Source: Congeria kusceri
Lineage: Eukaryota > Mollusca > Bivalvia > Myida > Dreissenidae
Assembly: GCA_027627225.1 (NCBI GenBank)
Contig: JAPFQT010000150.1
Location: 461,001 to 525,000, forward strand
DNA length: 64,000 bases
Direction: 5' to 3'
The notes beneath the pieces were generated by a model. It ran no database searches and was not told the origin of the DNA. It worked only from the letters and a program-made list of their open reading frames with translations. Position 1 is the stretch's first letter. Each line of letters opens with the position of its first letter. Shown piece after piece: positions 641 through 48,193 of the stretch. The translations under genes and the position numbers were made by a program.

Positions 641-800
641 TGACATCTTAGTTACAGCGACAACTACCGACGTATCATTTCATACTCGCACGGTTTGACA
701 TCGAGCTACTCAACTAAATAACCTATTTGTATTGGTTTCCGACGATTTCACGCACTTTTACAAAATTACCTTTTCTTAACTAGATCGTTTCCTATTACAG

Positions 801-873: not shown

Positions 874-1004
874 ACTGGGAGAACCACGAGTGAAATCTTC
901 GGTGAGATCGTGGACAGCAAAAACATCTGGAGTCATACAAATGAACATTTCCAAGTGATCGCTGGATATCCAACCTACAAACAGATCGGGGATAGAGCTA
1001 GTGA

Positions 1005-1215
1005 GATATTAAATGGGCAGTGTTGCGTCTAAGCAGGGGAATGAGATATTAAAGGGGCAGTGTGGCGTCTAAGCAGGGGGAATGAGATATTAAAGGGGCT
1101 ATGTTGCGTCTAAGCAGGGGGAATTAGATATTAAATTGGCAGTGCGGAGGTTTAACAGGGGATGTGGTGTTTAAACAGGCGGAACAAGGTATTAAAATGG
1201 CAGTGTGGCATCTAA
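1005..1215. repeat. minisatellite, about 42-bp unit
   Basis: About five imperfect copies of a unit beginning GAGATATTAAAGGGGCAGTG and ending TCTAAGCAGGGGGAAT; the later copies decay. Confidence 0.75.
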
Positions 1216-18841: not shown

Positions 18842-18847
18842 AGTCCC
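18842..18847. other. left target-site duplication AGTCCC
   Basis: AGTCCC directly precedes the left terminus TATGGAACGCC and recurs exactly at 34970-34975, directly after the right terminus. Confidence 0.9.
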
Positions 18848-18876
18848 TATGGAACGCCATCACTGCCTTAACATGA
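18848..18876 (+). repeat. left terminal inverted repeat
   Basis: TATGGAACGCCATCACTGCC and the next nine bases match the inverted right end with one mismatch (C to A at the 14th base). Confidence 0.9.
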
Positions 18877-18899
18877 CAATTATTTTTATGAGCTGTGGA

Positions 18900-19625
18900 T
18901 ATATCGTAAAAAGATGTACACATATATTATATGGTGTTCAATTTTCGTTATATGGTGCCCTTTTTCCATTATATTTTGCTCATGCGTCATTCTATTATGC
19001 TTGTTGTTGTCAATATTATGTCTAATTGCTATGTTCTGATGCTAGTTAATCGTTATAGGCTGCTCATTTTCTATTATATGATGCTTGTTTGACTTTATAC
19101 GAGGTGCTGCCTATTTGTAGATCATTATATGATGCTCATTTTTCACTATATGATGTCAGTTTGCATCTATACGAGGTGCTGTATGATAATCGTTATATGA
19201 TGCTCATTTCTCATTATATGATGCTAGTTTAACATTATACGCTGCTTATTTTTAATAACATGATGCTGATTTTCCATTATATGATGTCATTTTGCATCTT
19301 TATGAGGTGTTGTATTTTTATCGTTATATGATGCTCATTTTTCATTATATGATGCTAGTTTAAAATTATAAGATGCTTATATTTAATTACATGATGCTAA
19401 TTTTCCATTATATGATGTCATTTTGCATCTTTATGAGGTGTTGTATTTTTATCGTTATATGATGCTAATTTTCCATTATATGATGCTAGTTTGACATTAT
19501 ACGCAGTCATTTTTAATTACATGATGCTCATTTTCCATTATATGATGTCATTTTGCCTCTATGCGAGGTTCTGCTTGTCCATGGTGCTCATTTTGTATCA
19601 TATGATGTCAGTTTTCCTTTATAAA
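18900..19625. repeat. left subterminal tandem array
   Basis: Repeats of about 27 bp such as TTATATGATGCTCATTTTCC, alternating with ATGATGCTAGTTTGACATTA and TACGAGGTGCTG variants, building larger units. Its reverse complement forms the array at the other end of the element. Probable recombinase-binding or promoter region (inference). Confidence 0.85.
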
Positions 19626-19630
19626 CGGTT

Positions 19631-21079
19631 TTGTCATTTAATAATATGCAATTTTCATTAACATGCGATATATTATGCATGATGATATTGTATTGCTCCT
19701 GCATCGTTTGCACATGCCTTTGCAAAGAAAAAAAAAAGAATGGAATTCTCGAAAAATTGGGTTTAAATAGTGCTATTGAGACGTTCAAACATCAGAATAT
19801 TACGTCAGACATCGTAAGCAAAATATCAGCATATGAAATGGAAATGCTTGGTATTTCAAATAGATCTGTCATGATGCAGTTGAGAATTGAATGCAACAAA
19901 TATGGTGGCATTAAACCAAACAAAGACAGATCTAAAAGCGGCGCACCACAATTTGACATTCCTAAGAGCGTTCTGCAATATTTTCTAGAAAATGGTTTTA
20001 AAATAAGTGAGATTGCGAAGCTGGTGGCTGTATCTGAACGCACGATTTATCGAAGAATGGTAAGATATGGTCTTAGTCGACATGCATTTTCATTACTTAC
20101 TGATGACAACCTCGACGGGCATGTCAAAAAAGTAATAAACGAGTTCCCATTTTGTGGAGAGAACATGATAATGCAAATACTTCACCAAACAGACATTAAT
20201 GTCCAGCGGTATCGTTTAAGGGACAGCATTCATAGAGTCGACTCAAAAGGGGTTTCAGAGAGAAAACTTGGTCGTCTTCACAGGCGTGTGTACGAGGTAA
20301 TGGGTCCAAATCATCTGTGGCACATAGATACTAACCACAAGCTCGTTCGATGGAGATTTGTGATTATAGGGGGAATAGATGGCTTCAGCAGGATGGTCAC
20401 GTTTCTCTCGTGTGCAGACAACAATCGCGCAGGCACAGTGTTAAAAAGTTTCAAATCAGGTGTACACACGAATGGGATTCCAAAAAGGGTAAGATCTGAC
20501 AAAGGATTAGAAAACGTGGCTGTTGCAGACTTCATGTTGGCGAAACGAGGGACTGGCAGTATGATTACTGGACGCAGTACACATAACCAAAGAATTGAGA
20601 GACTGTGGCGGGATGTTTTTGAAGGAGTTTTGTGTTTCTTCTATAATTTGTTTTATTTTATGGAGGACAACGGGATACTGGACTGCTTAAACATGGTGCA
20701 TTTAATTGCTCTTCACTACATATACATGGATGAAATAAATAGAAGACTTAGTCTTTGGGCTCAAGCATGGTCGACACATAGAATTAGAACAGTGAATTCG
20801 TCTCCGCAAGCGCTTTGGTTATCGGGTCAGCTGCAGTCACCCATTGGCTTTGACTTACCTTCAGCAGATGTAAACGACGATAGTGCCGAAGAGTCCGGCG
20901 ATGAACAAACTGTTGGGAATGGAGAGAGACCAATATTTACACCTCTGGAAAAGATTATCAGTGACCATTGCATGGAGATGGTACAAAGACAGATCGCTTC
21001 CCCAAGACTTGATGTCAATCATGAGATTGATGATTACCTTACATGTGTTGATATCATTAACAGACATAATCAAAATTAA
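19631..21079 (+). CDS. SAM-HTH-DDE integrase/transposase of the 16-kb element
   Basis: 482-residue open frame. Order: hydrophobic/Cys-rich lead (1-31, perhaps not translated), SAM-type helical domain (about 38-88; IEKLGL-like start, FKHQNI, EMLGI), helix-turn-helix (about 107-148; [19 protein letters not shown]), a second small helical region (about 160-205), and an rve-type catalytic core. Acidic triad: D233 in LWHIDTN, D290 in [10 protein letters not shown]323 in [13 protein letters not shown]290-E323 spacing is close to DD(35)E. A C-terminal acidic tail follows ([10 protein letters not shown]). It should cut and join the element's ends. The start is uncertain: an acceptor-like TTTGCAAAG ends at 19727, so the real first coding exon may lie in the left array. 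Family relatives are the metazoan 'integrase core domain' proteins. All catalytic residues are present and no frameshift is seen. Confidence 0.88.
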
Positions 21080-22195
21080 TGTATCTCGATTTGAAATGAA
21101 ACACCAATTAAAGAGTATCACCTTTACTTTATTTTTTATAATTAGGGCTGCAACGATTCATTCGATGCCTCGGTCAATCGACTTAGACTCACCGATTCGA
21201 TTGTCGATATTTATTCAGTCATTTTCGATTCGATTATTTTACATGTTTACAGAAAAAATCATAAATCAATAAATAAAAAGTATACTTTTGCATCTTTGTC
21301 ATGTAAACGGATGCCCCATCATGTTTGCTGTTATACTGTATTAAATTTTCTATTGAATCTGTATAATCATTTTCCTTTGTTTCTTATTTAGTTAATCATG
21401 TATAAGGTACAGACGTTTACATTAACTGATACAATGACATCAATAATAATTAATATATATAATGTATATGTTCCTCTATTTCAAATATTGACTCGCTAAA
21501 ATTTAGCTTATATAAATGAATAGTTGAGCTAAAACTGAATAAAACTGGGGTCACCGCTTTGGGACGGTCCATGCAAAGCATTGGCGGTTTAAACCGGTTT
21601 TATTGAGCTCCGAACCTCACACTTGGCCCAGATTTATTCATGTCAAATTAATGACTCTAGGTCAAATGCTTTAAGTTCTACACAAGAGACAAACTTCTCA
21701 AAGACGACAGAAAAAAAGCTAATCTACTTTAAGCCCCCACTGGAAAATGATATATATATATATATATAATATCATTTAGAAGCTTCTTATAGATTTGTCC
21801 ACATACAGCTTAATTTAATTTAGTGATCTTTATATTTGTCAAGCATTTTAACAAGTCACGTTAGATATAAATTGTAATCTATAGATACAATGTAATCACA
21901 TTTAGCACACCACACCGTAACAAAAGCTCACCACGTGCACTTCGTCACGTGACTACTATTATGAAAACTGACAATACAAATAAGGGAAGTAAAGAGCATT
22001 TATTTAAAAATATGCATAAGGTATAGCAGAACATTTTGAATAGTTGAACTGAGAAGAAAAAACAATATTGAACAAACAGACAAACAATTGATGAAAGTCT
22101 ACACTATATGAAAATTACATATACACAAAATGCCCTTATAAAGGACGGCAGAAATGACTAGAAATGTGAACACACCTATTATGCCACCATTCTGA
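21080..22195. other. non-coding interior of the element with dispersed repeats
   Basis: Holds a CGATTCATTCGAT / TCGATTCGATTATTTT repeat (about 21145-21245), a GGGTCACCGCTTTGGGACGG repeat fragment (about 21546-21635) and a (TA)n tract near 21755. No further gene seen between the integrase stop and the HECT 3' end. Confidence 0.45.
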
Positions 22196-22199
22196 CGAA

Positions 22200-22660
22200 A
22201 AGTAAAATAATGCCACCATTCTGACAAAAATTAAAATAATCTATGTTTAATAAAAGATTAAACGAAGTTGAAAAACGCAAAGGGCAATAACTCGACAAAA
22301 AATAACTAGATACAAAAAGTGTGTGAATATGCCGTACATCACATGATATAAATCATTTTGTGAAAGTTTTGTGAAAATAACATAAGAAATGTAGGAGGAG
22401 TGCAGCCGATAAACTTTATAAGGTAAATTTAAACAAATGGCAATAACTCTTGCAAAAATGACCAAATACAAAAAGCATGATAATATGCGCTATATCACTT
22501 GATAATAATCATTTTGTGAAAGTTTGGTGCAAATTGCATAAGAAATGAAGGAGGTGACAGACAAGCTTTACAAGGTAAATTTAAACCAAGGGCAATAACT
22601 CTGATAAAAATGAAAATCCCATAAGAAATGTAGGAGTTAACTGGAAAAGTAAGTTGGACT
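22200..22660. repeat. tandem repeat, about 150-180 bp, about 2.5 copies
   Basis: Repeated segments containing GGCAATAACTC, ATCATTTTGTGAAAGTTT and CATAAGAAATGTAGGAG. Confidence 0.7.
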
Positions 22661-23559
22661 GACGTACGTTCTAACAGGAGAGTAATTAAGTGGCTACCTT
22701 ACGTAATACAGATACTTATGTATCTTAAAATAGCCACATAAAAAAAAGTTTTACCCACACAAAAGCAAAACTAACCCTAACTCTAATGATAATCAACTAA
22801 ACTGTCCAAAATAATAGCCACTTAAATACTCTCCTGTAAGTGCATAAAGAGACAGACAGTGTGCCACCATTCATGGGCATAAAAACTAAAAATATAAAAC
22901 TGGTATCTGTGAATAGTTAAACACATTCTGTAATTGTAAGATTAATAAAACATTTGACCGTATTTGCTAAAAACAATTACATGCCTTTTTATAAAACGCA
23001 ATAAAGAAGAATGCATCTTTTGACTCTAAAAAAAAAAAAAACTTTCAAGATAAAAAGAGCTGTCATAAATGTTACATATTCCCCCCAACGGCTGGCCCAA
23101 AAATTGACCTTTGACATCTAAGTGTGACATTGACCTTAATGATACAGACTTCGGTTTTGTTCACGTCACGGTGACAAAAACTTGTGCCATGTCATTCAAA
23201 AATCCATCAATGAGTGCCTAAGTTATAGAGCTGACATGGTCTCCGATAGACAGACTGACTGACAAATCACAGTTTGACTACTGTAAGGCCACGTTTGGGC
23301 CATAATAAAAGATAACGATATAACAATTAAACAATTGTAACCTCCTCAAACAGTTACAGAATTTTTTTAATTATAGCAATAGGTAAAACTGACTCAAATT
23401 GAGAAATGGCTTGAATTTTATAACATAGCAATATTATAAATCATTTAATTTTTCTATATACAGGAATAACAAGAGCTGTCAGAAGACGGCACGTTTGACT
23501 ATTTGAAATATATCAATTGGTACATATTTTTGACAGTGTACGGGATATATAACAGTTAA

Positions 23560-24640
23560 AAACAGATCTGAATTAAGGCAAATCGTTCATCAAATTATTC
23601 CAAGTTTTAAGTTTTTAAGTTCAAGACTTTAGAACAAAAACTTAATCAAAGTTTATGCATAAGTGGACATACCTATGTAAATTTTTAGTGGAAAGAAGAA
23701 TATAATTCTTTTCAAAATATAAAACAGAGTTATTTGGATTGTTGCTCCTGAAACTGGAGTTAATAACAACAGTATATTCTAAGTTTCGAGTAAATAACAT
23801 CTATTGTTTTGAAGTAACAACATTTTTGAAAATAAATTTGAACCAGAAAATCTTAGTGAAAAGGTGTATAGCTGTCACAATACAAAACAGATTTATGGGG
23901 AAAATTGCCCTTTATACATGTACTGAAGACAAACGTGTATATCAATGTTCAGGAAAATAACAAAACTTTTGAATTTAAACTTTTACCAGAAAATCTATTT
24001 AAAAGGGGGCATAACTCTTGTCACAATACAAAACAGAGTTGCGGACAATGTTGCCCCTGATACTGAAGTTCATAAAAAAGGTGGATGTCAAATTTCAAAA
24101 AAAATAACTTCTATAGTATTGAAGTAACAAACTTCAAAACTACATAACTCTGCCAAAATACAAAACATTGTTTAATGTGGGGAATGTTGCCACTGATACT
24201 GGATTTAATGACAAAAGTCAAAAGTGAATGCAAAGTTTTAAGTAAAAAACTTCTTAGTTTTGAAGTAACAAAACTTCTGAGTATAAACTTTAACCAGAAA
24301 ACTAAGTAAAACAGGAGGCATAACTCTGCCAAGATATAAAACCAGAGTTATGACAAATGTTTCCCCTGATACTGGAGTGGACGACAAACGTGAATGCCAA
24401 GTTTCAAGCAATAAATTCTAATGTTTTGAAATGACAATACTTTTGAATATAAACTTTAACTAGCAAATCTAAGTGAAATGAGGCATAACTCTGCCAAAAT
24501 ACAAAACAGAGTTATGGAAAGTGTTGCTGCTGATACTGAAGTTGATGATAAATCATGTAAATCAAGTTTCAAGTGAATAACTTGTGTAAGTTGCAAGACT
24601 TTTGAAGGCAAACTTTTAACAAAAGTTCAGACAGACACAT
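23560..24640. repeat. degenerate tandem repeat, 135-175 bp, about six copies
   Basis: Copies share ATAACTCTGCCAAAATACAA, CAGAGTTATGG-CAATGTTGC and CTGATACTGGAGTTGATGAC. Spacer-type invertebrate repeat lying downstream of the HECT gene. Confidence 0.75.
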
Positions 24641-24855
24641 TTATATTAAGTATTTTATATTCCCTCTCAATTTTCATCAACAAATTCAAATGTAAAGTAA
24701 TAAAACTAATTTTTTAGCAACATAAAAGTTTCTATAATCCAGTTTCCTAAACATTGGATTAACATATAACTATAAACAAGCTGTAAGTGAGTAAGTCTTT
24801 AAACATTTGAAATAGCACTTATTGTGCAGACATGCATTCGTTGGCTGGAGTACAG

Positions 24856-27800
24856 TTACACCATACCAAAAAATGTGTTTGAGAAAGCCAAGTCATAACA
24901 ATAAAACAAAGTCTGGTCTGGTGGTAAAGGCCTGTCCGTAGTTGGTCTTGGGAGATTCAAAGTGTTGGCACATGTGTTAGCTGTAGGAAGAAAGCTATTT
25001 GCCACCTCTGGAAACCTGATTTTTGGGTGCATTCTGAAGCCAAGCAAGGGTTCTTCTTCTGCGCCAGTGGCAAATTTGAGGATCTTGTTTAAGGTGACCG
25101 TCTCTCTCCTACCACCTGAGTAAAAAAAGATGGTCGATAAAGCATAGTCTGCATCATACAAATAATAAAGTGAGATGTGTCTGCAGAAAAATTAAACAAG
25201 ACAGCCCTAGGTGGCTCACCTGATTACAGAGCAAACTAAAGCACCACTGGCAGCTATCTTTTTTACTTCTAGAGTTTCATTTTTTTAATATAAATTACGT
25301 ATTGACCTTGTTTTTGACCCGATATGACCCACTTTCAACATACCCACATATCGTCCCATATATCAATTTCAGGGGTGTAGAAATCCTATGCCCAACTCGT
25401 CCAACATGGGTAATTTGAATGTGAAGACTTTAATGTAAAATTTTCCTGTAAACTTCTCTGCGGACAAGAACAATTTTGATGCTATCCACATACCAAGTTT
25501 CATCAACGTAGCTTAAGTATTTTTTGAGTTATCGCATGATCCAGATTCGGACGAACAGACGGACTGACACACAGACGGACGGACCGGGGGTAACCTATAG
25601 TCCGCTCCAGTTACACCGGTAGGGGACTAAAAATCTCAATCATGTCCTTTATAAACGTTGCTAGTATACATCAAGTGCTGCATTTAGGTGTTCATACAGT
25701 TTTAAGTTTATTTCCAAATACTTTAGGTAGAGATGTCCATGAGTAAACATGTATTTGAAATAGTACACAATGTACATATTAGACGTATATCAAGGTCACT
25801 GGTACAGTTTTGATCACTTAAGAGTTTTAAGACATAAAGTATGTACGATTATATTCTGTACAATAATAAACATTACCAAATTTCACAGTGAATTATTTAT
25901 GCAGCTAACATTAATTAATGGTCGAATAGGGCGTATTTAGAATTGAACAAAAAGCAAATCTGATTGTGATATGTCAAGATTTCCCTGTTTTTAAAAACAT
26001 TATTATTTCTTACAAGAAAAAGAATTATATTTAATTTTAATACTTAATGCATTAATAGGAATTTGCAAATTACAAATTTTTTTCCATAGCTTGAGAGCCA
26101 TTTTTTTACTTTACAATTGACCTTGGCTGGCGGACAAGAAAAATTTTACAATGTACTTGTCCTTGGAGAAGTGAATAATTTTTATATATCCAGACCTCTG
26201 TCAATAAATAAGGTAATGTTTCTGCAAGTCTACCAGGTAATGCAGATTGGGTCACAAGGGTAAACAAGCCTTTTTCTGATTTGTCCTAATTTTTGACCTG
26301 AGGCAACACATTAAAGGAGCATGATTCCTCAGAAGGAATAAATGAAAGTAAAGAATTATATTTTAAAGAAGGTATAGCAGTTTTTGTTCATTTTCTTTGT
26401 TTTGAAAATGTAATGTTTTATTTACCAGCTGCTTCCCGCATGTATCTTGTAAATGCTGCATAAACTTTGCTTTCACCGCCTCTACTATTAGACCCCATTT
26501 CGGAAAAGAACGGGCGCAGCAAGTGCGTCAGGAGTCTCACCGTCATGGTAGTACTTGTTGGTCTTAGTAAATACCTAAATGACGGGAGAGTGAGTCCAAC
26601 CTGTATCAGAAAATTAAAACATAACATTATACCTAAAACCATTGGTTATTTGGCAGTAATTACAACTGTCATGTTATAGGGTGTGGACAGTAAATATAGC
26701 AAGCAATGACTCCAGAAACTCTATCAGGAGAGAAATTCTTGTTATCATCCACAAATCGCATTACAAAACACCAACCATAAACATAGGTGATCAAATCATT
26801 GTGAAGCATTGTTTTGTGTTTTGGCCTGTTCTTTGAGCAAGAAGACAGTGTCAACCTATGGTAAGGAGCAAAAACTGAATATGATTTTTGTGTGATTCAC
26901 TGTTTAATACTTACTGTATATAGACCTAGCCAGTCTAAGCCAATCCGTAGATTCATAATGCACTCTGATCTTGTCTCTGCCAAGCTAAAGATCTGCTCTT
27001 CATAGTCATGAATGAAAAATGGAATCTTTCCATTCTGTAAGATGCTCATGCCTGAGGATAACAAAGTTTATAGCTAACCTTTTACTCAGATTTGAAATTA
27101 ATATTAATTTTGTAGATAACTTTACATTTCTGTATCACAAAAAGTAAAACATTCTGCAGGTATATTAAACTGAATATCAGATATGCTTATGAAAAGACAA
27201 ATAAATATTTTACACAATTTCAGATTATTTTAAACTATGAGGAACAACAATATTGTATCCATTTGAACAAGGCAGTCCAAGAGACAGCTATATCCCCAGC
27301 CGAGATTTTTTTAACCTTGAAGTGGTGACCTTGATTTTGAGCCAGCGTGACTGACTCGTGCCTTGTGCACATCGTCCCAATGACCTAAACATTGTGGCCA
27401 TGTTTGATGAAAATCCTTCAATGGGAAAAGGAGATATGGACCATGCACGATAAAAGGCTCAAACTTTTGACCTTAAAGTATGACCTTGGCCTTGAGCCGG
27501 CGTCACTGACTCGTGCCTTCTGCACATCGTCTCAATGACCTAAAAATTTTGCAAAGTGTCATGAAAATCCTTCAAAGGGTATAGGAGATATGGAGCGGAC
27601 ACGAAAATGGTGGCTCAAACCATTGACCATTTACCCCGTCCACGAACTTTACGGATGACCCTCGTACATTGTTGTATAAATTAATATTTAAAAAGTATCT
27701 TTTTGACAACATTGGTATTAGTTAACATAATGAACACCTACTGAATTTCGGCTTTTAGGTTCATCAGAAAAAATCGCTTGATTCAATAATGAGGAAATTT

Positions 27801-30800
27801 TTGTATACCATTAATATTTTTTCCCCAAAGTGATTGACACCTAAAGCCACTTACTGAAGAGCCTTCCAATTGTTATATAGTCCTCTAGCATATGTTCACG
27901 GAGTCCATTATCAAAGTACTTTTCCTTTATTGCTCCGAGTACAAGCTGGAAAAATTCTTTTCTCGGACCGCCAAGGTCATGGGCCATCTGAAAGAGGGTA
28001 ATACTTATAAGTTTGTATTAAATAAATTGAATCTTTTTTTTTCCTACCATGGGCATATTTTCGTCAATTTTTTGGGCCGAATTTTGCCCCCCCCCCACCC
28101 CCTATGAAAGAAGAAAAAAGAAATTTGAATTCTGCATAACATTACAAAATTGTGTCTACAAGTATTTTATGCTGTTAAACATTACCTGGGGTTATTTTCA
28201 ATTTTTAATAAGAATATCTAATTAAAGTGATTAGATATTCATTATTTTAAATAAATTAAAAAAATATTCCTAAATTCCCCCCGGTAAGGTATTTTGCGTA
28301 AACGTTCCCCTGGAAGGGCCCAGGCCTGATATCCGCAGGAGTGAGAATATGCCCTGCTGCAACATTTTACATCCAATTTCTTTACCAAATTAACAATGGC
28401 TGATAAGATGTTGATTTTTTACGAAATCAAACATTTAAGCCAAATCTGTAATTGAGTAGCTATAATAAATCATCTTCAAATTACCTCATCGTAAAACTGT
28501 ACCTCCAATACCAGTCTTGGGTTTTGAATAGCCTTGATTTCATCAAAGGAAGTTTCAAGGATGTTTAGCCTATCAACATTTATGAAATTGGTTTCCCCTG
28601 CATCCATGGTGTTTTCATTAGAGTCAATGTCAAGCTGTCTTCCAGTCACTATAACTGATTGCAGATATCTTAGCATTTCAACAGGATCTTCTATTTTATG
28701 ACTAACCATGTGTTCTATGGCCTTCTCAACCACAGTATGTACATTATCTGAATGTGGATCAAAAGCTGAATTGTTGCTGTCATTTGACTGTTCTACAGCA
28801 GTATCAACATAAGCAGATTGCGCATCAGATTCCATATTCAAAAGAAGTTGACTGTTGTGGTCATTAGCTTCGATCACTTGATTGACATGTTCACTTGAGA
28901 CAAAGACAAAACTGTCAGTTTCAAGGGTTATTGCAGTTGCTGCTTGGTCGGTTTCCAAATTTGTCTCGATCTGGATCTGCGACTCTTGACATTCCTCTTG
29001 GTAGTGAGATCTCAGATTTTGAACTTCAATCTTTTGACCACATTGTCTACATTTTTCTTTTAGGTCAGCATCAGACGTCTCTATTACAACCGGTTCGGTA
29101 GATAAATTTTGTTGGATTGGTCGAACATAAATTTTTGCCTGAGTACCGAGGAATTTTTTCAACTCTTTAATGGTCCATGGGCAGTCAATAACTTTCAAAC
29201 TCCGGCTATTTGCTTGACATCGAAGCAATTCAAATCCTCCGCAATTTTTCAGCTGGGGAAATCCTATGTATTCGTTGCTATCATTCTTTTCTTCCAAACA
29301 TATCTTTTCCATGATGTTGTCTTGACAACTGAACTGTATTTTGTTAGTACCCAGTCCTGCCTTCATCAGCCTTTCTTTAATATCAGCTGTTGGGACTTTA
29401 TTACTGTTTTTGGTACTTAAACACACTATTGTCACAGTCCATGGTCGATGAGGCTCTTTTGAGATTGGTCTTTGTCTTGAATTTCTCCCAGTACGAGAGA
29501 ATAGCAAATGTCGCTCCCGTCCAGCTCCAAAGTCTCCCACACGACTGGAAATAAATAAACAGTTGCAAACTATGAAACAAGTTACATTATTTAAAGTATC
29601 ATAGAAAAGTTGCAAACTACTGCCATAACTGAATACACAGGTGGTAATAACATGCTCATGGTTATATAAAAATACTTTTATATATACGTTTGGTCGTCTA
29701 TGTCAAAGATGCTTTAAAAGACAGCAATGAGTTGCTCATCTGAGTATAAATCAAACTAAAGCCCCACTTGCAGCCTTATTATTTACCTCGAGCATTAACA
29801 AGATTTTTCTTTTATTTGACCTGTTGACCGAGTTTATGTCCCAAAAAGACCCACTTTGAACTCAGTCATCTTAGCATGTCCTGAACAATTTTCATAACGA
29901 TTCGGGCAAATAATACAGCCTCTAGAGTGTTCACAGAGCTTTTTCATTTTATTTGATACAGTGATCTAGTTTTTGACCCACGATGACCCAGTTTCCACAC
30001 CGTATAAGATATCCAACAGATAATTGTTATGAGCAAGTTACATGATGATGATTGCACAAAAAAGTTGCTTCAAGAGTGAAAACAAGCTTTTTCTTAAAGT
30101 TGACCTGGTGATCAATTAAACACCTTACCAGTATATAAGGTAATGCAGGAACTACATCTTCACTGCATTCCTTATTTAAAATGAATAGTGTGTTTTTATC
30201 TTTAGCTTTATTTTAATTGATTAATTGTTAATTCTAAGTTTAAAATGTACAACATTACTGTTTTAATGCACTTAGTTGAATTACTTTGAATGTATATCAT
30301 TTTAATAATTATGTTGATTAAACTAAGTTATGAAATGAAAATTTTTTTATTTCAAATAAATGTAAAACAATATTCATTTCAAAAATGAGTGGCTCTAAAT
30401 AAGACTAAATGTTGTTCAAGTATTATTTGTTGTTGTGTATTAATGAATTTGAATGTTTGATTTATGTATGTGTGATTTTATGACTACACTCCTTACTTGC
30501 AATAAATGGTGTTTATTCATTTTGGCTTGCAGTACGGCTTCCTCCTCCTAAAGAACCCCTCACAAGACAATGTAGTCGTTAAAGAGAAATTACTACAAAA
30601 TCTTCCATCACATTAAATTCAAGAAATTGCTACAAAATCTTCCATCACATTAAATTCAAGAAATTACTACAAAATCTTCCATCACATTAAATTCAAGAAA
30701 TTACTACAAAATCTTCAATCACATTAAATTCAAGCAAAATAGACATTGGGACAAAATTCAGAGACAACAATCACACTGTGCCCACAATAATAACAACTAC

Positions 30801-33800
30801 AACAACAACAATCTCTGTCAAAATATAAATATAATTTTTTAAGTAATGGTGGCCTTGACCCCCACCCGTCAGATGCAATTCCAAGTGAGGTCTAAATATA
30901 AGGTACCCATGTGTGAAGTTTTATCACAAAAGCTGAATCAGCTCTCGGGACATTGAATGGAAAACTTGCCATATCTAGAAATGGTGACCTTGACCTGGAC
31001 CCAACCCATCCTAAAGGCAATCCCAAGCTAGGTCTCCATATAAGGTATTTATAAATTAAGTTTCATTGCAATACTTCAATTAGTTTGCAAGATATTGCTT
31101 GGGAAACAGTTTTTCTATGTTTGGTAAGGGAGACATTGACGCCACCTATCCCAGATGCAATCCCTAAGAAATGTCTTGATATAAGGTACATGTGTGTGAA
31201 GTTTCATGGCAGTAACTTAACGTGTTCTCGAGTTATTGAGCGAAAACTGTTTTGCTATTTATAGTAATGTTGACCTTGATTCCATCTACACCAGTTGCAA
31301 TTCAAAGCAAGGTCTCATTTCAGGAATATATAATTATGAAGTTTCATCACAAATAAAGCTTAAGTTTTTTCCAAGTTATTGAGTGGCAACCGTTTTGCTA
31401 TTAAAAGTAATGTTCACCTTGACCCCACCTACCCTAGATGCAATCAAAAGCGAGGTCTCTCTTAAAGTATCCATTATGAAGTTTTATCACAATAAGTCAA
31501 ATCATTCTCAAATTATTGAGTGAAAACCATTTTGCTATTTTCAGTTATGGTGACCTTGACCCTGCCTACCCCAAATACAATCACAAGTGAGGTATTGATA
31601 TAAAAAATGAATCTAAGCATGAAGTTTCATTAAGATAACGAAATGGGTTCTCAAGTTATTATCAACACCAAAATAAACAATTTTGAAAAATTTAAGCAAT
31701 TGTTTTTATACATTTTTGTCGTAATGACAAAAAATAGAAAAAATGAGGTTTCGTTTTGTTCTTGTTTTCTTCATTTTAGGCACAAAATTTCATACTTATT
31801 CAGTTGCAGCTGCAGAAGTTTGAATGATATTTAATGGAACACATTAAGCAATTTAGCACATTGTTTTAAACAGAAAACAAAGTAGCAGAATCACAATAAA
31901 ACTTTACTACAGACAGCTTAAGTTTCATCTTCAATAACAGTGACCCAGATGTATGTTTTTTAAAGGTTAAACATTATGTTCTAAATTTAAATAAAACATA
32001 ATTACACATAATAATAATACAACATGAGTACTTGCAAGTGTTAACATACCTAAACAGTAGATGTCCTTATTTCAATTAACCACATGCATACCAAGTAGAT
32101 GATAATTGTTGAAAATCAGCAGTGCCACATTAATGTTAATTAGCACAAGTTACTGTTAGCTTGTTTTAGCCATATTTATTTTATTCACTTGATATGAGTT
32201 GTAAGAGATTAGTAGTTTGATTCAAGAAGTAGAGACCAGGGCCCTGTTTTACTAAGCTACTTACGCAATTCTTAGACTTGCGCGCACAATTTAAATTCGT
32301 TATAGGATCTTCACTGTATTACTATTAGCTTACCGGTAAAAGAACTCATGTTTCTATTATAACATGACATTTTAAATTTCAAGAAATGATTAATTTACCT
32401 CAATCTGTTATTACAAAATTCCAAGAATTTAAAATATATACGTACAAATAAGAATTGCGTAAGTAGCTTAGTAAAACATTCTGCATTATTCTTTATAAAA
32501 CGTATTATTGTAATCTCCTGTAGAAATATTTTCAACTTGTTAATATTTGCTTCTCATATGAAACCTTATACAAAAGTACCTTTGCATAACTAGCTTGCAC
32601 ACACTTTCAGTGTTGCTAGCAGGCCTGTTATCAGCAGTTCTATTTAACACATTTGTCTCGCTCGAAACTCTCCTATTTGATTCCTATATTTCAGAAATAA
32701 ATATCTTGTCTTTCCTAAAAACCAATTTGTCTCCATAGGAAATTGATCTGCTATACAAATGGAGTGACCCTGTGTCTTTTTTTCTAATAAAGCCAGATTA
32801 AAAACATGTGGTTTAAATTACTGCATGGATGGTAATTTTACTTCTTATTAATAAATCTGCTGTAAAACAAATGGGGTGGAATAGATTTTAGCTAGTAGAA
32901 TTGTGTGATAAATAATATGTTTGGCTGTATTTGCTTTAATTGAAAATTGTGAACTCATCAATAATAAACTGATTAGTAACGCCAAAAAAAAATTATTAAT
33001 AATAATTATTATTATTAATTAAAATAATAGCATTAGAAGTAAAATTAATAATAATTAATTTATGTTGCATCATCATCATCATCATCATCATCTTCTTCTT
33101 CTTTTATCAGCATCATTATCACTACAACCACCACCACCACCACTGCCGATTTTCAATGATTTTCATCAACAATTTAAGGAGAAAGGAGATTATGACACAG
33201 ACATACAGGCACAGACAATTTTCCACACAGTCATCTTATGCAATAAAATGACTTACCATCACCAATATTTTTTACATTAGTAAAATCTCATAAAAATGGG
33301 TTGATTTAGCTTTATTTATTGTATTATTGCTGTAGCACTACAAACCTCTAAAAAATGTCTTGCTAACAAAAGGTAAGACTGTGTTAAATAGAATGAATAG
33401 CTTTATGTCATTAGCGAAAGCATTATGTGTCCAAATGTTTGAACAACATAAAAGGCGTCAAAATAGGACAGCGTCAATTTAGGTCACTTGAGGATATGTT
33501 AATCCCTCAGTCCCCACCTGCAAATATTAATATTTTAAAGTAGGGTTTAAAAATAGTCAGTCAGTAAAAAATTAACCCATGGAATTTGTTCAAATTTTAC
33601 ATAGTTTGCTGAACCAGAAGGGTGCATCAATAAATACTATACACTTACTGACCATGATCATAGGAACATATTTCTTACGCGTGTCCGCAGTATGGCGAAT
33701 ATTGAACATTGCAAAATCGTTGTTTTACCCTAGTATTGGGCGGTTGGTGGACTGAGTGAAACATGGAATTACGTGAATCAAGGCATTAACACTGAGTTGT

Positions 33801-34077
33801 TAAGTTTTTTTCCTAACCTGATGACAGTGGAGCCTTGGTCATTGCCAATGACACTGGTTTCGCTGGGACTTGGAGTGACGTCACGTTGTTGGATTTCCCG
33901 TACCTTCTCCCTCAGCCTTACCCTGTCACCGATTGTTGTCACGCCAAGTCGGCATAGTTCATTGTCTGACAGAGTCAGCAAATTTAAAAACTCTATTCGT
34001 TGGCTAACGAAGTTGTTTAACAGGCCATGTAGCCCTATTTCTTGCAAAACACTTTCGATTGTTTGGCGGCCCGCCAT
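24856..34077 (-). CDS. SAM-zinc finger-HECT E3 ubiquitin ligase-like protein (six exons, 674 aa)
   Basis: Coding exons: 34077-33818, 29544-28485, 27987-27855, 27051-26915, 26600-26426, 25115-24856. Every intron is GT-AG and all five junction phases agree, giving 675 codons including TAA. SAM domain, residues about 5-64 (VLQEIGLHGLLNNF, LGVTTIGDRVRL). Residues 118-230 resemble the conserved region before HECT in fish and mollusc 'G2/M phase-specific E3 ligase-like' proteins (FPQLKNCGGFELL, YVRPI). C252-x2-C-x11-H267-x4-C272 can bind zinc. HECT about 405-674: DLGGPRKEFF, GRLFSMSIL, FATGAEEEPLLGF, and FLPTANTCANTL with the thioester cysteine at C637. The HECT region, about 270 residues, is shorter than the usual 350, so E2 binding may differ. 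It lies wholly inside the transposon, convergent to the integrase; ubiquitin transfer is inferred from family. Confidence 0.9.
25195..25635. repeat. dispersed repeat in HECT intron 5
   Basis: Begins AACAAGACAGCCCTAGGTGG and runs through GACCCGATATGACCCACTTT to a GGACGGACTGACACACAGACGGAC tail. Same style as repeats near 29740 and 60700. Confidence 0.55.
27295..27650. repeat. two tandem copies of a unit of about 155 bp (HECT intron 3)
   Basis: GACCTTGATTTTGAGCCAGC and GACCTTGGCCTTGAGCCGGC begin matched copies that continue through ACTGACTCGTGCC and GACCTAAA. Confidence 0.7.
29740..30120. repeat. dispersed repeat in HECT intron 1
   Basis: Contains ACTAAAGCCCCACTTGCAGC and CCAAAAAGACCCACTTTGAA segments related to the repeat at 25195-25635. 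Confidence 0.45.
30586..30735. repeat. perfect-type tandem repeat, 37 bp, four copies
   Basis: Four near-identical copies of AAATTACTACAAAATCTTCC + ATCACATTAAATTCAAG in HECT intron 1. The low divergence implies recent expansion. Confidence 0.9.
30840..31640. repeat. tandem repeat, about 140 bp, about six copies
   Basis: Copies spaced 133-148 bases apart share GTGACCTTGACCCCACC, CCAGATGCAATC and GTGTGAAGTTTCATCAC. Located in HECT intron 1. Confidence 0.8.
31641..33060. other. HECT intron 1 sequence, no gene seen
   Basis: AT-rich; contains a short inverted pair, TAAGCTACTTACGCAATTCTT (about 32258) and AAGAATTGCGTAAGTAGCTT (about 32451), which may bound a small MITE. Confidence 0.4.
32256..32472. 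mobile_element. MITE-like element with terminal inverted repeats
   Basis: TGTTTTACTAAGCTACTTACGC at the left end is mirrored by GCGTAAGTAGCTTAGTAAAACA at the right end, about 217 bp overall. The interior is AT-rich and non-coding. Confidence 0.65.
33067..33110. repeat. CAT/CTT trinucleotide microsatellite
   Basis: (CAT)n followed by (CTT)n in HECT intron 1. Confidence 0.85.
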
Positions 34078-34139
34078 AACGATTTTTCAAATGGCAAGAT
34101 AGCAACTAAGGGAGTTGACTGCGTGTATTCTAAAAATAG

Positions 34140-34930
34140 CCGGTTCGCCCATCGTATAATGAAAAATGCACATCATAATATGGTGTTTTGACACCATGGT
34201 AAAAAATAGCATTTTATCAACGCAAATTACCATCGTGTATTGACGATTAAGCATCATATACTGTCAAACTATCAACATATAGTGGACAATTAGCATCATG
34301 TAATGATAAACATGCAACATATAATGTAAAACTAGCATCATATAGTGGAAAATGAGCATCATGTTATGATAAATAAGCATCATTTAATGTCAACCTAGCA
34401 TCTTATTATGGAAAATGAACATCACTTTATGGTTATAAGCAGCGCATAATGTCAAACTAGCATCATATAATAGAAAATGAGCATCACGTAGTATTAAACA
34501 AGCAGCGTATAATGTTAAACTAGCATCATACAATGTAAAACTAAAATCATATAATTGAAAAAGACATATTGTGATGATAAATAAGCAGCGACTAATGTCA
34601 AACTAGCATCATATTATGGACATTGAACAGTATGTTATGATAAATAAGCAGTCCATAATGTCAAACTACCATCATATAATGGAAAATGAGCATCATATAA
34701 CGGACAATGAGCATCATATAATGGACAATAAGCATCATATAATGGATAATGAGCATCATATAATAGAAAATTATCATCATGTTATTATAAATAAGCAGCG
34801 TATAATGTCAAAGTAACATCATATTATGGAAAATGAGCATCATGTTTTAATAAATAGCAGCGTATAATGTCAAATTAACATCGTCTAATGGAAAATAAAC
34901 ACCATATAATGAAAAATAAAGCAGCGTATA
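34140..34930. repeat. right subterminal tandem array
   Basis: ATCATATAATGGAAAATGAGC and GCAGCGTATAATGTCAAACT units, the reverse complement of the left array's units. It begins only about 60 bases upstream of the HECT start codon, so it could hold that gene's promoter. Confidence 0.88.
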
Positions 34931-34940
34931 AAAGTTTTTC

Positions 34941-34969
34941 TCATGTTAAGGCAGTTATGGCGTTCCATA
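34941..34969 (-). repeat. right terminal inverted repeat
   Basis: Ends ...ATGGCGTTCCATA; matches the left terminus inverted with one mismatch in 29 bases. Confidence 0.9.
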
Positions 34970-34975
34970 AGTCCC
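34970..34975. other. right target-site duplication AGTCCC
   Basis: Exact copy of 18842-18847, immediately outside the right terminus. Confidence 0.9.
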
Positions 34976-40220: not shown

Positions 40221-41054
40221 GACGTCTTAAACCCACTCAGGGTTTTTCAAAGTATTCCCCGCCGCACTCGATACACCGTCGGTGCCTATGTCCCACTGCG
40301 TGCATATGTTCTCATACCATGATGAGTCGTACTGTTGGACAATTTCAGTTGTTGATTCCCGTAATTGTGATAGCGACTCAAACCGGCGACCCTTCAACTG
40401 CCGTTTAATTGTAGGGACAATCGAGAAATGGAACGGGCCCAAATCTGGGGAATATGGCGGGGGTGTGACCGTCCCAAAGCCTATGACACGGATTTCCAAC
40501 TGAGTTCCCGCTGATGTAAAAATGCTCCATGAAGACACTGGGTCGCTTTTCCGCAAAGCATTGGACAGTTCACGTCGGAGAACCTAAATTGTTAAGTTAT
40601 TGTTATGTTACAAATTGCAGTGCATGCGTATTTTTAATTTGTTTATTTTAATTATTGACGCAATTTTAAATTAAATGTACCACAGAAAACAAATATTGAA
40701 GTTTACTAAATTTACTGTAATATTCTGCGTTTACAGTCGCTCCATTGGGTACCGTATGCATGAGGATCATACCCATGATGTCGGCAAACATTATGAACAT
40801 TGTCTTGCCACTGCTTTTGGACACCCGGGCATTTTTGGGAGATGGGGAACCATTGCGCTTCCAGACTGCATACTGCGCCTTCGTCTCGGTGTTATGGCAC
40901 CAAAGCCAGTCTCATCGGTGGTAATGATGCGCTGCAGGAATAAATAGCCCTCTCGCCCAGATCGCATGCTGAAGTCACGGGTATCCCGCACGCGACGTTC
41001 CTGTTCGTCCTGCTTTAGAAGGCTCGGTACCATTAAAATAATATAATGCTGCAT
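40221..41054 (-). pseudogene. decayed mariner-family transposase
   Basis: Two minus-strand fragments in transposase order. 41054-40791 reads EQERRVRDT, then RIITTDETGFGAITPRRRR and SMQSG, matching the mariner catalytic region around the second acidic block (TGDE-type). 40556-40227 reads TVTPPPYSPDLGPFHFSIVP, then KRQLKGRRFESLSQL, the hallmark YSPDLAP region that holds the third catalytic Asp, and a C-terminal segment. Between them about 230 bases of AT-rich DNA break the frame, and the N-terminal DNA-binding half is missing. A dead copy of a cut-and-paste transposon; terminal repeats were not identified. Confidence 0.8.
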
Positions 41055-41980
41055 ATGTTTACCAAAAGGAAATATAATTTTTTTTTGGAAACCTTAAATT
41101 TCATGTACATGTAACTTAAATGCTATTAGTTACATAGTTCTTCTTACTGACCCCGTACGGTGTGATACAGATTGGGCTATTGCATTGCTTATGTATTAAT
41201 TATTTTATGTTTGCTTTTAAAGAATGATTTTACTGACTGGATATTTACTGGTGCTGACATAGTTTGTAATACTACACGGTCTGCACATGACCCGGCTGAA
41301 CCGAAGAAAGCGAATATTCTGCACGAGATATGATAAAAATCAATTACTTCATATAGATCTAGTATTATTTGGACGTATTTAATTTGTGTTAATGCTGCAT
41401 AAATAAACATTTATTTGGCGAGGCTTAGAAAAACCGCGAGACTTGCACAGTACAATAGCCGGGTTGGAGCTTACAATAATGGAGTCAAAGGGATGTTACC
41501 GCTGCGAGGTGTATAGCGTTTCCTTTTCCAGAAATGATTACAACTTAAGTGCAATTCCAGTTTATGTAGTTAAAGCAACATTATAGAAAACAAAACACAC
41601 AAAAAACACTTTCAAAAAGCTCGTTTTCTGTTTAGTAAATACATACTCAGGCAAATGACAATCTAATTAAGTTTTAGCATTCGACATTTTCAAGATCGTG
41701 ACAATATTGACTATAACGTGTTAAATTTTTGGTAATAACGTACCACTACCAATTTTCGGGTTTATGTGAATATTAAAAAATTAACGTTTTTGTGATTTAT
41801 GAAGATTACAAATAATAAAATATACACGTTCTTGGTATCAAATTGTTTATTTTGTTGAATCTGATTCATTTGTACTGAAACTGTTGACTTTATAGTTTAT
41901 TCAGAGTAATATGACGTACGTCCAAACATTGACTGATGTAAAAGTTACTGACCTGATATAAAAAATATATATATCAGGTA
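41055..41980. other. non-coding stretch, no gene seen
   Basis: AT-rich sequence. May include the eroded 5' end of the mariner copy, which I could not delimit. Confidence 0.35.
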
Positions 41981-42465: not shown

Positions 42466-43845
42466 CTAATTCAGACCTCACAATTTGCTATATCCAGTGC
42501 GTACAATGTTAGTACTCTAAACTGATTAAATTAAACACGACTGTGTGTAACCCTATTGATATGATAAAGCCATAAGTAATGAAATACGTTTAATAATCTT
42601 ACAAAAACCAGTATGTGATACATGGAAACGTAGAACTCTTTTAATTATGCATAGCTTATACAAAATAGGATTTTGGAATAATACAAACTGCAAAACGACT
42701 CTTTTAAACGGTGAAATAATTTACGTTTAAATATTTCAACCTAAAATATGATTTCCTGTAAGATTACTTTTTATTAGCACCGTAATTATTTTCTATAATC
42801 GTAACAATTTGACCTTGTCCTCAAAACTTCTTTACCGTGACGTCCAGACGGCTTTGTGAAAGAGACCGGTTGGATTATAAACTAGTCTGTTGTTACTGAA
42901 ATAATACAGTTACATGTTATCTATTTAATACAACTTATACTTTCAATAATCGTATTTATGTTCATATCGTCTCATATTAGTAACACAAACTTTATATTGT
43001 TTTTGTGTTTTCATGTTGTTTTTACAGTGATTGGACATCTAGTCGCCTCGTCAACTCGTACCCTGGTCTGGCGGATTCGCGGCAGGCCGTCGGGTTCCAA
43101 GAAGGCATGCTTGAGGACTCCTGGCAGGCAGGAGGCTTCCAGGAAGGCGGGCGCACTCGGGTCAGGCGGGCGAGTCTCAGGCAGGCGGTTTCCAGGCAGG
43201 AAGAGGGGTTCGAGTAAGGCATGCATACGGGAGAGTTCCAGGCAGGCAGGCGGGCGGGCGGGCGTGCTCCATGCCGGCAGAAGAGCGAATTCAAGGCTGA
43301 CGGGCGAACTCCAGGCAGGCGGAATTGTCTCGAGTAGGCAGGCGTTTTCCGCACCTACGGGTTCCAGGCTTGCGGACGGCCAGTCACTCATCAATCATTC
43401 ATTCCTTTGTTATATGTAGAGAAAATGGTGCAGTGAGTCGTGGACTCAAATCCGTGACCTCTATCTTATAATAAATAAATTGTATACGCGCACGCAATAA
43501 TGTAGTACATGTAGTGTGTCTTGGTCTATTGCGAGGTTCGCAAGTCTGGTTCGTCATGACAATCATACATATTACTTACAAGAAATCAATACATTTGAAG
43601 GTTGTTTTGTTTAATTATAGCAAGCGAAGTGTATGATAACCTACACGTGATATTCATATTGCCAAAGTTAGTAAATAATGTCTTTAGTGTCCGCGTGGTT
43701 ATTTTTAACCCTTCCCATTAGTGGCGACATATTACAGGTTATCATAACATCTCTAAGACACGTGTATTTAAAATAAAATTTATTCAGAACTGGTTCTACC
43801 CTGAGTCCGGAGTTAAGTGTATGTGAAGTGTTCGTGTATTGAATG
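42466..43845 (+). repeat. left arm of the foldback element
   Basis: Inverted partner of 46497-47886, with only scattered differences. Includes a GC-rich GGCAGGCGGGCG tract (43050-43380) that creates a 153-codon frame mirrored in the other arm; I treat it as non-coding. Confidence 0.88.
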
Positions 43846-46496
43846 ATTCAGTACTGGTTCTACCCACAGATCGGAGGTATAATTATGGGGACGTTGTCAT
43901 TCACAACTTTCAGTACTGGTTCTACCCTCAGATCGGAGGTATAATTATGTGGACGTTGTCATTCACAACATTCAATACTGGTTCAACCCAACGATCGGAA
44001 GTATAATTATGTGGACGTTGTCATTCACAACGTTCTGTACTGGTTATATCCAAAGATCGTAGATATAATTATGTGGACGCTATCGTTGAATGTTGTGAAT
44101 GACATCGTCCACATAGTTATACCTCCGATCAATGGGTAGAACCAGTATTGAATGTTGTGAATGACATCGTCCACATAGTTATACCTCCGATCCGTGGGTA
44201 GAACCAGTATTGAATGTTGTGAATGACAGCGCCCACATAGTTATACCTCCGATCTATGGGTAGAACCAGTATTGAATGTTGTGAATGACAACGACCACAT
44301 AGTTATACCTCCGATCTATGTGTAGAACAAGTACTGAATGTTGTGAATGACATCGTCCACATAATTATACCTCCGATCTATGGGTAGAACCAGTATTGAA
44401 TGTTGTGAATGACATCGTCCACATAGTTATACCTCCGATCTATGGGTAGAACCAGTACTGAATGTTGTGAATGACAGCGTCCACATAATTATACCTCCGA
44501 TCTATGGGTAGAACCAGTATTGAATGTTGTGAATGACATCGTCCACATAGTTATACCTCCGATCTATGGGTAGAACCAGTATTGAATGTTGTGAATGACA
44601 ACGACCACATAGTCATACCTCCGATCTATGTGTAGAACAAGTACTGAATGTTGTGAATGACATCGTCCACATAGTTATACCTCCGATCTATGGGTAGAAC
44701 CAGTACTGAATGTTGTGAATGACATCGTCCACATAGATATACCTCCGATCTATGGGTAGAACCAGTATTGAATGTTGTGAATGACAGCGTCAACATAATT
44801 ATACCTCCGATCTATGGGTAGAACCAGTATTGAATGTTGTGAATGACAGCGTCCACATAAATATACCTCCGATCTATGGGTAGAACCAGTATTGAATGTT
44901 GTGAATGACAGCGTCCACATAATTATACCTCCGATCTATGGGTAGAACCAGTAATGAATGTTGTGAATGACATCGTCCACATAGTTATACCTCCGATCTA
45001 TGGGTAGAACCAGTATTGAATGTTGTGAATGACAACGACCACATAGTCATACCTCCGATCTATGTGTAGAACAAGTACTGAATGTTGTGAATGACATCGT
45101 CCACATAGTTATACCTCCGATCTATGGGTAGAACCAGTACTGAATGTTGTGAATGACATCGTCCACATAGATATACCTCCGATCTATGGGTAGAACCAGT
45201 ATTGAATGTTGTGAATGACAGCGTCAACATAATTATACCTCCGATCTATGGGTAGAACCAGTATTGAATGTTGTGAATGACAGCGTCCACATACATATAC
45301 CTCCGATCTATGGGTAGAACCAGTATTGAATGTTGTGAATGACAGCGTCCTCATAATTATACCTCCGATCTATGGGTAGAACCAGTATTGAATGTTGTGA
45401 ATGACAGCGTCCACATGGTTATACCTCCGATCTATGGGTAGAACCAGTACTGAATGTTGTGTTGACAACGTCCACATAAATATACCTCCGATCCGTGGGT
45501 AGAACCAGTACTGAATGTTGTGAATGACAACGTCCACCTAATTATACCTCCGATCTATGGGTAGAACAAGTACTGAATGTTGTGAATGACAACGTCCACA
45601 TAATTATACATCCGATCTGTCGATAGAACCGGTACTGAATGTTGTGAATGACAACGTCCACATAGTTATACATCCGATCTATGGATAGTACCAGTACTGA
45701 ATGTTGTGAATGACAAGGTCCACATAGTTATACATCCGATCTATGGGTATAACCAGTACTGAATGTTGTGAATGACAACGTCCACATAATTATACATCCG
45801 ATCTGTCGATAGAACCAGTACTGAATGTTGTGAATGACAACGTCCACATAATTATACCTCCGATCTGTGGGTAGAACCAGTACTGAATGTTGTGAATGAC
45901 AACGTCCACATAATTATACATCCGATTTATGGGTAGAACCAGTACTGAATGTTGTGAATGATAACGTCCACATAATTATACATCCGACCTATGGGTAGAA
46001 CCAGTACTAAATGTTGTAAATGACAACGTCCACATAGTTATACATCCGATCTATGGGTAGAACCAGTACTGAATGTGGTGAATTACAACGTCCACATAGA
46101 TATACATCCGATCTATGGGTAGAACCAGTGCTAAATGTCGTGAATAACAACGTCCACATAATTATACCTCCGATCTGTGGATACAACCAGTATTGAATGT
46201 TGTCAATGACAACGTCCACATAATAATACCTCCGATCTGTGGGTAGAACCCGTACTGAATGTTGTGAACGATAGCGTCCACATAATTATACCTACGATCT
46301 TTGGATATAACCAGTACAGAACGTTGTGAATGACAACGTCCACATAATTATACTTCCGATCGTTGGGTAGAACCAGTATTGAATGTTGTGAATGACAACG
46401 TCCACATAATTATACCTCCGATCTGTGGGTAGAACCAGTACTGAAAGTTGTGAATGACAACGTCCCAATAATTATACCTCCGATGGTAGAACCAGT
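43846..46496. repeat. 62-bp satellite array with orientation switch
   Basis: About 43 units of TACTGAATGTTGTGAATGAC + AACGTCCACATAATTATACCTCCGATCTGTGGGTAGAACCAG. Units left of about 44085 are inverted relative to the rest. Marker variants (ACGACCACATAGTCATACC at 44601 and 45035) recur at 434 bp, seven units, showing higher-order repeats. Confidence 0.92.
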
Positions 46497-47886
46497 ACTG
46501 AAACATTCAATACACGAACACTTCACCTACACTTAACTCCGGACTCAGGGTAGAACCAGTTCTGAATACATTTTATTTTAAATACACGTGTCTTAGAGAT
46601 GTTATGATAACCTGTAATATGTCGCCACTAATGGGAAGGGTTAATAATAATCACGCAGACACTAAAGACATTATTTACTAACTTTGTCAATCTGCATAAC
46701 ACGTGTAGGTTATCATACACTTCGCTTGCTAGAATTAAACAAAACAACCTTCAAATGTATTGATTTCTTGTAAGTAATATGTATGATTGTCATGACGAAC
46801 CAGACTTGCGAACCTCGCAATAGACCAAGACACACTACATGTACTACATTATTGCGTGCGCGTATACAATTTATTTATTATAAGATAGAGGTCACGGATT
46901 TGAGTCCACCACTCACTGCACCATTTTCTTTACATATAACAAAGGAATGAATGATTGATGAGTGACTGGCCGTCCTCAAGCCTGGAACCCGCAGGTGCGG
47001 AAAACGTCCGTCTACTCGAGACAATTCCGCCTTTCTGGAGTTCGCCCGTCAGCCTTGAATTCGCTCTTCTGCCGGCATGGAGCACGCCCGCCCGCCCGCC
47101 TGCCTGCCTGGAACTCTCCCGTATGCATGCCTTACTCGAACCCCTCTTCCTGCCTGGAAACCGCCTGCCTGAGACTCGCCCGCCTGACCCGAGTGCGCCC
47201 GCCTTCCTGGAAGCCTCCTGCCTGCCAGGAGTCCTCATGCATGCCTTCAAGGAACCCGACGGCCTGCCGCGAATCCGCCAGACCAGGGTACGAGTTGACG
47301 AGGCGACGAGATGTCCAATCACTGTAAAAACATGAAAACACAAAATCAAATTAAAGTTTGTTTTACTAATATGAGACGATATGAACATAAATACCATTAT
47401 TGAAAGTATAAGTTGTATTAAATAGATAACATGTAACTGTATTATTTCAGTAACAACAGACTAGTTTATAATCCAACCGGTCTCTTTCACAAAGCCGTCT
47501 GGACGTCACGGTAAAGAAGTTTTGAGGACAAGGTCAAATTGTTACGATTATAGAAAATAATTACGGTGCTAATAAAAAGTAATCTTACAGGAAATCATAT
47601 TTTAGGTTGAAATATTTAAACGTAAATTATTTCACCGTTTAAAAGAGTCGTTTTGCAGTTTGTATTATTCCATAATCCTATTTTGTATAAGTTATGCATA
47701 ATTAAAAGAGTTCTACGTTTCCATGTATCACATACTGGTTTTTGTAAGATTATCAAACGTATTTCATTACTGATGGCTTTATCATATCAATAGGGTTACA
47801 CACAGTCGTGTTTAATTTAATCAGTTTAGAGTACTAACATTGTACGCACTGGATATAGCTATAGCAAATTGTGAGGTCTGAATTAG
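46497..47886 (-). repeat. right arm of the foldback element
   Basis: Inverted partner of the left arm. Its end lies within two bases of the next element's terminus. Confidence 0.88.
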
Positions 47887-48193
47887 AGACTTTAGTGGGT
47901 TATCTTCCCTTGTCTAGCAGGTGCCCGTATAGGCGGCGCTGTTGTCGAATAGGTCCATTGTTATTTATTTTCCCTTCCATTGTTTACTTCCGCTAAGATT
48001 GACAGTTGATAAACAGAGTTTTAACACGATTTGATTATATTTCTTCGAAAAAGGTGTAAATATGGCTTCAAAGTTTGTTTGTAGTAATAAATACAATATG
48101 TTCTTTGTTTGCAAAGTCGTCTTTTCTTCATTCTTTTCTTAAAGATGAGGCAGTATATGATTATTAAACAAATGTATTACATAATTGTTTCAG

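Follow-up and report, generated by a model that had tools for sequence, protein, structure and literature searches.

Ubiquitin ligase

The question raised by the locus described here is whether a ubiquitin ligase can be a working part of a transposon. We analysed a window of 64,000 nucleotides from the dreissenid bivalve Congeria kusceri (assembly GCA_027627225.1, contig JAPFQT010000150.1, positions 461,001 to 525,000 of the forward strand); all positions below are counted from the first letter of this window. It contains an IS3EU-type element of 16,122 bp with both ends intact (18848-34969), in which a DDE transposase gene and a gene for a HECT-type ubiquitin ligase converge. The identity of the element as an IS3EU-type transposon with these ends is close to certain. 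As to what the ligase does, we lean, at slightly better than an even chance, towards the reading that it docks through related SAM domains on transposase bound to arrays of short repeats at the element's ends.

Ends and subterminal arrays

The element is bounded by 29-bp terminal inverted repeats, TATGGAACGCCAT[C/A]ACTGCCTTAACATGA, one beginning TATGG at the left (18848..18876, plus strand) and the other running in reverse from 34969 (34941..34969, minus strand), with agreement at 28 of 29 positions. Directly outside both termini stands a perfect target-site duplication, AGTCCC (18842..18847 and 34970..34975). Within the window, the element gave no blastn match to its flanks at 1e-3. We also counted perfect inverted pairs of 13 bases flanked by a direct repeat of 6 bp that is not a palindrome, a pattern less demanding than the observed 28/29 match: the 64-kb window has one, and 40 Markov-sampled windows together have one.

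Just inside each end are about 700 bp of period-21 repeats (18926..19598, plus strand, and 34250..34931, minus strand; limits approximate), with 21 bp as the strongest autocorrelation lag in both. When units are extracted independently from the left and the right array, the two sets share one consensus, CATTATATGATGCTAATTTTC, and face opposite ways as mirror images; at up to five mismatches, each end has 21 such units. Scanning the whole window with CATTATATGATGCTAATTTTC at up to three mismatches recovered nine units on the plus strand at the left, ten on the minus strand at the right and none elsewhere; the corresponding counts are 17, 14 and 3 at up to four mismatches and 22, 22 and 20 at up to five. 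Mirror-image arrays of one and the same unit at both ends are further evidence, independent of the termini, that these ends form a pair. The transposase and HECT genes each start beside one array. We regard the arrays as putative transposase binding sites; 21 bp corresponds to two helical turns. They would likely double as promoters under transposase feedback, since each gene starts just inside one of them.

The transposase

An integrase-type frame is open on the plus strand from 19625 to 21079. Counted from 19733 (gene 19733..21079), the protein consists of a SAM domain, a helix-turn-helix and a DDE core in which D199, D256 and E289 are conserved. The core is recognized by Pfam as rva_4 (PF24764; 20288..20836; E 4e-74), and the top fold match is the bacterial IS21 transposase IstA. 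The closest relatives start with a methionine where this copy has a lysine; translation of this copy would have to begin at an in-frame ATG farther upstream or in an upstream exon.

At E 1e-3, 2845 proteins qualify as relatives. Among the best 120 of these, the closest with a species name is from Dreissena polymorpha (71% identity), and three others are 79-82% identical. The only NCBIfam matches at 0.01 are to IS481 (1.8e-12) and IS3 (2.7e-8), both far below the equivalog (naming) cut-offs. An HHCC pattern before the core was found neither in the transposase of the window nor in any of the 134 listed relatives.

The HECT ligase

The facing gene, on the minus strand, comprises six exons separated by five GT..AG introns and encodes 674 amino acids with no internal stop. 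In the splice model, exon 1 (33818..34077, start codon at 34077) encodes the SAM domain, also seen by Pfam, and exon 2 (28485..29544) a middle domain, a C2HC-like finger, a linker and the start of the HECT domain. Exons 3 (27855..27987), 4 (26915..27051) and 5 (26426..26600) follow, and exon 6 (24856..25115) holds the C-lobe, the predicted catalytic residue and the stop. Both the N-terminal SAM_1 and the C-terminal HECT domain (32 versus 23.9 bits) exceed their Pfam cut-offs, and the predicted catalytic Cys637 lies near the C-terminus within TANTCANTLNLP. The product is a predicted HECT-type E3 ligase, encoded by the element, with putative ubiquitin transfer activity. Two of the introns contain imperfect tandem repeats (27309-27594, 155 bp; 31225-31593, 137 bp), both with TGACCTTGACC-like stretches.

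In a structural model of the HECT relative P0123, five helices form the N-terminal domain, followed by a middle domain, a finger and a HECT domain, and the model matches solved HECT domains of the NEDD4-type fold. The middle domain and finger are conserved across the family. We found 103 HECT relatives; those with species names are mostly from bivalves, followed by cnidarians and the hemichordate Ptychodera flava, and none is from a fish. One cluster, named for Magallana gigas, represents 106 sequences. A second group of relatives (among them P0169, P0175, P0180, P0185, P0197, P0203 and P0218) has a differing N-terminus that lacks SAM.

The original prediction had described the 28/29 termini with a perfect AGTCCC outside both, an open DDE integrase gene and an open six-exon SAM-HECT gene, and in all of these it was borne out, with the start codon of the transposase left unsettled.

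Related SAM domains on both proteins

In the transposase, the SAM domain (residues 2-56; 19736..19900, plus strand) became apparent through family profiles and the structural model, in which five helices span residues 2-8, 12-20, 25-28, 33-38 and 44-56. As a single sequence it scores 15.9 bits against a Pfam cut-off of 23, and a single-sequence search of the PDB did not find a SAM domain. The profile of the whole protein family matches tankyrase-1 in the PDB at 2e-4, and the profile of the SAM region alone does so at 1.7e-6 (31.0 bits). At E 1 the latter profile has 33 PDB matches; two are Na,K-ATPase beta, and the rest are proteins that we take to bear SAM or SAM-like domains. For one relative, P0014, SAM_2 is a precomputed annotation, and the domain is present in 125 of the 134 listed transposases, the remaining nine being N-terminally short.

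When the two families are aligned by hhalign, exactly the two N-termini match (probability 96, E 2.7e-9). The transposase-SAM profile retrieves 34 of 104 HECT proteins at E<1e-3 (best 48.1 bits), and the HECT-SAM profile retrieves 116 of 134 transposases at the same threshold (best 41.8 bits); reversed and shuffled protein controls gave no match in either direction. From the transposase side, therefore, the best HECT SAM exceeds the best PDB SAM, that of tankyrase-1. In a tree of 128 of the 180 SAM domains (after removal of near-copies and short rows) plus four outgroups, the transposase SAMs form one group (100/99), which joins 13 HECT SAMs (96/78). Family profiles point to kinship between the SAM domain of the transposase and that of the ligase. 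The two count tankyrase, BICC1, ANKS3/6 and SHANK, whose SAM domains form polymers, among their top relatives in the PDB. By kinship to tankyrase and BICC1, the SAM domains of the element may be polymer-forming as well.

Co-occurrence of transposase and ligase

Bivalves and cnidarians each have named members of the transposase and the HECT family. Among contigs in the size range 10 kb-5 Mb that bear listed relatives, 44 carry a transposase and 42 a HECT protein, and four sizes are common to both sets (30,226, 468,268, 1,048,430 and 1,466,850 bp; 0.004 expected by coincidence), sameness of contig being deduced from equal size in base pairs. Matches at 43,197,688 and 62,650,966 bp are chromosome-sized and uninformative. 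A size match at 2,293 bp was set aside as coincidence because both proteins do not fit. The 30,226-bp contig, which holds two transposases and an N-terminal piece of a HECT protein, is the only one short enough to argue for neighbourhood. The claim that the ligase is core content of the element gains some support from the four shared contigs, a single one of which is short, and is tentative.

No further DNA copies turned up in viral contigs searched with the transposase and HECT alignments. A search of genome contigs with the transposase alignment returned one match, a sponge-like contig (LWTN01000118.1) in a bacterial metagenome-assembled genome. In this contig of 3.4 kb, we found neither a SAM domain nor TA..TA ends with a duplication. 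The eukaryote-type transposase at its positions 1-3382 is filed under the genome of a Cycloclasticus symbiont of a sponge, and is likely host contamination. Another N-terminal domain common to SAM-less members of both families was not seen, the one sponge transposase having no similarity to 17 HECT relatives.

A possible mechanism and its alternatives

From the observed ends, duplication, genes, catalytic residues, arrays and SAM kinship we infer the following steps. The helix-turn-helix of the transposase would read the 21-bp unit, and the spacing of two turns would align transposase monomers on one face of the DNA. Contacts between SAM domains could then string the transposases into a filament and pair the two ends, upon which the DDE core would cut and rejoin with a 6-bp stagger. 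The HECT protein may use its own SAM domain to join this filament and ubiquitinate the transposase, and ubiquitination would dismantle the joined complex and keep the level of transposase low. Joint recruitment of the ligase into the transposase complex seems to us about an even call. As for what the ligase mainly acts on, the transposase is our guess; we rank it above host targets since SAM domains on both proteins point to the complex. Bolder still, and tentative enough that we doubt it somewhat more than we believe it, is the proposal that a bivalve and cnidarian branch of IS3EU is a two-protein machine, in which SAM-tipped transposase filaments on 21-bp arrays at both ends, phased at two helical turns, are ubiquitinated by a dedicated SAM-HECT ligase, so that the transposon would be switched by its own ligase, and that this branch was the seed of the large SAM-HECT families in these animals.

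Several observations weigh against docking of the ligase on the transposase. The SAM contacts, the DNA binding and the ubiquitination of the transposase are predictions from sequence, and the start codon of this copy's transposase is unsettled. With the transposase-SAM profile, the HECT SAM encoded by this element comes to just 13.6 bits (E 0.4), the high cross-scores stemming from other family members and not from this pair. Seen from the HECT side, the SAM of BICC1 (44.5 bits) surpasses the best transposase by the same profile. In the SAM tree the outgroups sit on long branches within the HECT rows, and direction is unreadable from its 59 columns. Twelve of the 34 HECT relatives of at least 600 amino acids are without a SAM domain, some having another N-terminus, and the sponge transposase relative has none either. 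Three of the four shared contigs, at 0.47-1.5 Mb, are too long to show neighbourhood. Finally, since this is the only genomic copy seen, it may simply carry the ligase as a passenger.

Such a passenger would be a host-type SAM-HECT gene taken up by this copy or its lineage, with no role in transposition, and the two SAM domains would resemble each other by chance. In its favour, SAM is a common kind of domain, the element's own pair is weakly alike, a single short contig is shared, and the protein lists give no neighbours either way. We nonetheless consider capture improbable, given that HECT SAMs outscore every PDB SAM from the transposase side, that both families have named members in bivalves and cnidarians, and that the HECT gene begins immediately inward of the right array, a mirror image of the transposase gene at the left. 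Very improbable indeed is that an inverted repeat and an unrelated 6-bp repeat happen to surround two independent genes. The window is rich in repeats, and a looser 11-base test gave 52 inverted pairs with a matching 6-bp flank (among the 40 of these that were listed, five are AT repeats and 34 belong to a single long inverted repeat spanning 42.5-47.8 kb), but the ends agree at 28 of 29 positions, TA..TA with a 6-bp duplication is as in IS3EU, and mirrored arrays occur at these ends only.

The remaining alternative retains the IS3EU element and aims the ligase at the host: it would destroy silencing or repair factors, and its SAM domain would serve merely for staying near the element or for another partner. 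Rust-fungus IS3EU elements offer a parallel. They carry a TET/JBP dioxygenase, which excerpts of their description take to be a probable means of evading silencing by the host, along with an alpha-kinase gene opposite to the transposase, in the same orientation as HECT here (PMC12730594). The conserved middle domain and finger of the HECT protein could bind host targets, and its SAM is as close to that of BICC1 as to that of the transposase. Taken alone, however, a host-aimed ligase leaves the same-kind SAM domain of the transposase unexplained, and we think this account unlikely, if worth keeping in view. We continue to favour docking of the ligase on array-bound transposase.

Implications

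An animal IS3EU element with its own ubiquitin ligase, and with a SAM domain of the same kind on its transposase, would, if this reading is true, represent a new mode of self-control by a mobile element. By contrast, the fungal IS3EU cargo, as given in excerpts of its description, is a DNA-demethylating enzyme and a kinase (PMC12730594). The reading would also offer a testable account of where the many SAM-HECT genes of bivalves and cnidarians came from. Elements of this kind are a plausible explanation of the HECT expansions in these animals, to judge from the many species with named relatives, and counts of "HECT E3 ligases" as gene families there may include transposons.

Other features of the window

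Outside the element, a long inverted repeat (42517-47829) contains, close to its centre, repeats spaced by about 62 bp, with many nested inverted pairs and mirrored open reading frames, and is possibly another mobile element. Three further loci were noted, none with a Pfam match at 0.01. Two frames at 40227-41093 (minus strand) resemble, by eye, a broken Tc1/mariner-type transposase; a 363-amino-acid frame at 48168-49259 (plus strand) has a CxC..HCKH motif recalling SWIM fingers; and a 481-amino-acid frame at 50745-52190 (minus strand) has regular, leucine-rich-looking repeats (SPGLWEALHGLNIKSL...) and appears NLR-like by eye.

Comparison with known transposons

The original prediction went on to propose a distinct class of large eukaryotic transposon. 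This part did not hold, since the ends, the duplication, the absence of HHCC and the IS481/IS3-type core all match the named IS3EU/GingerRoot superfamily. The TA..TA ends, the 6-bp duplication, the lack of an HHCC finger and a DDE transposase akin to IS3 and IS481 place the element there, and it fits as a member of this known superfamily with HECT cargo as a variant. According to excerpts of the published accounts, TA..TA ends are constant in complete IS3EU families, which mostly have 6-bp duplications and group with GingerRoot (PMC10045372), and rust-fungus IS3EU elements have ends of the form TAYGG..CCRTA with inverted repeats of >30 bp (PMC12730594). The TATGG..CCATA of our element fits both patterns, whereas its inverted repeats are 29 bp. 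In the rust-fungus elements the TET/JBP gene separates the transposase from an alpha-kinase gene that points the other way (PMC12730594); here it is the HECT gene that has this opposite orientation. The excerpted IS3EU and GingerRoot accounts make no mention of SAM domains on both proteins or of mirrored 21-bp arrays. Our literature search returned no paper with both IS3EU and HECT, a search that would miss other names and entries confined to Repbase, and none on a SAM-bearing transposase paired with a SAM-bearing ligase.

Ginger1 and Ginger2 (TDD) are likewise cut-and-paste elements with an rve-type enzyme. Excerpts of their description give them duplications of 4-5 bp, with a 4-bp duplication and HHCC in Ginger1 (PMC10045372). 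A Ginger reading was rejected on ends and gene content, the duplication here being 6 bp and HHCC being absent. With Polinton/Maverick elements ours shares large size, an integrase-type DDE enzyme and a 6-bp duplication. Polintons have long inverted repeats and genes for polB, a packaging ATPase and capsid proteins, whereas the inverted repeats here are only 29 bp. Pfam found no polymerase, ATPase or capsid gene in the two genes and ten other longer open reading frames of the element, and those ten gave no match at all at 0.1. The Polinton reading was thus rejected on ends and gene content, in agreement with the initial view of one complete integrase-type transposon that is not a Polinton.

A parallel to the putative multiplicity of transposase sites at each end is found in bacterial IS21 (IstA) and phage Mu, which likewise have several transposase sites per end. 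Mu employs a separate host factor for disassembly of its transposase complex. The C. kusceri element, by contrast, would bring a predicted disassembly factor of its own, acting through ubiquitin.

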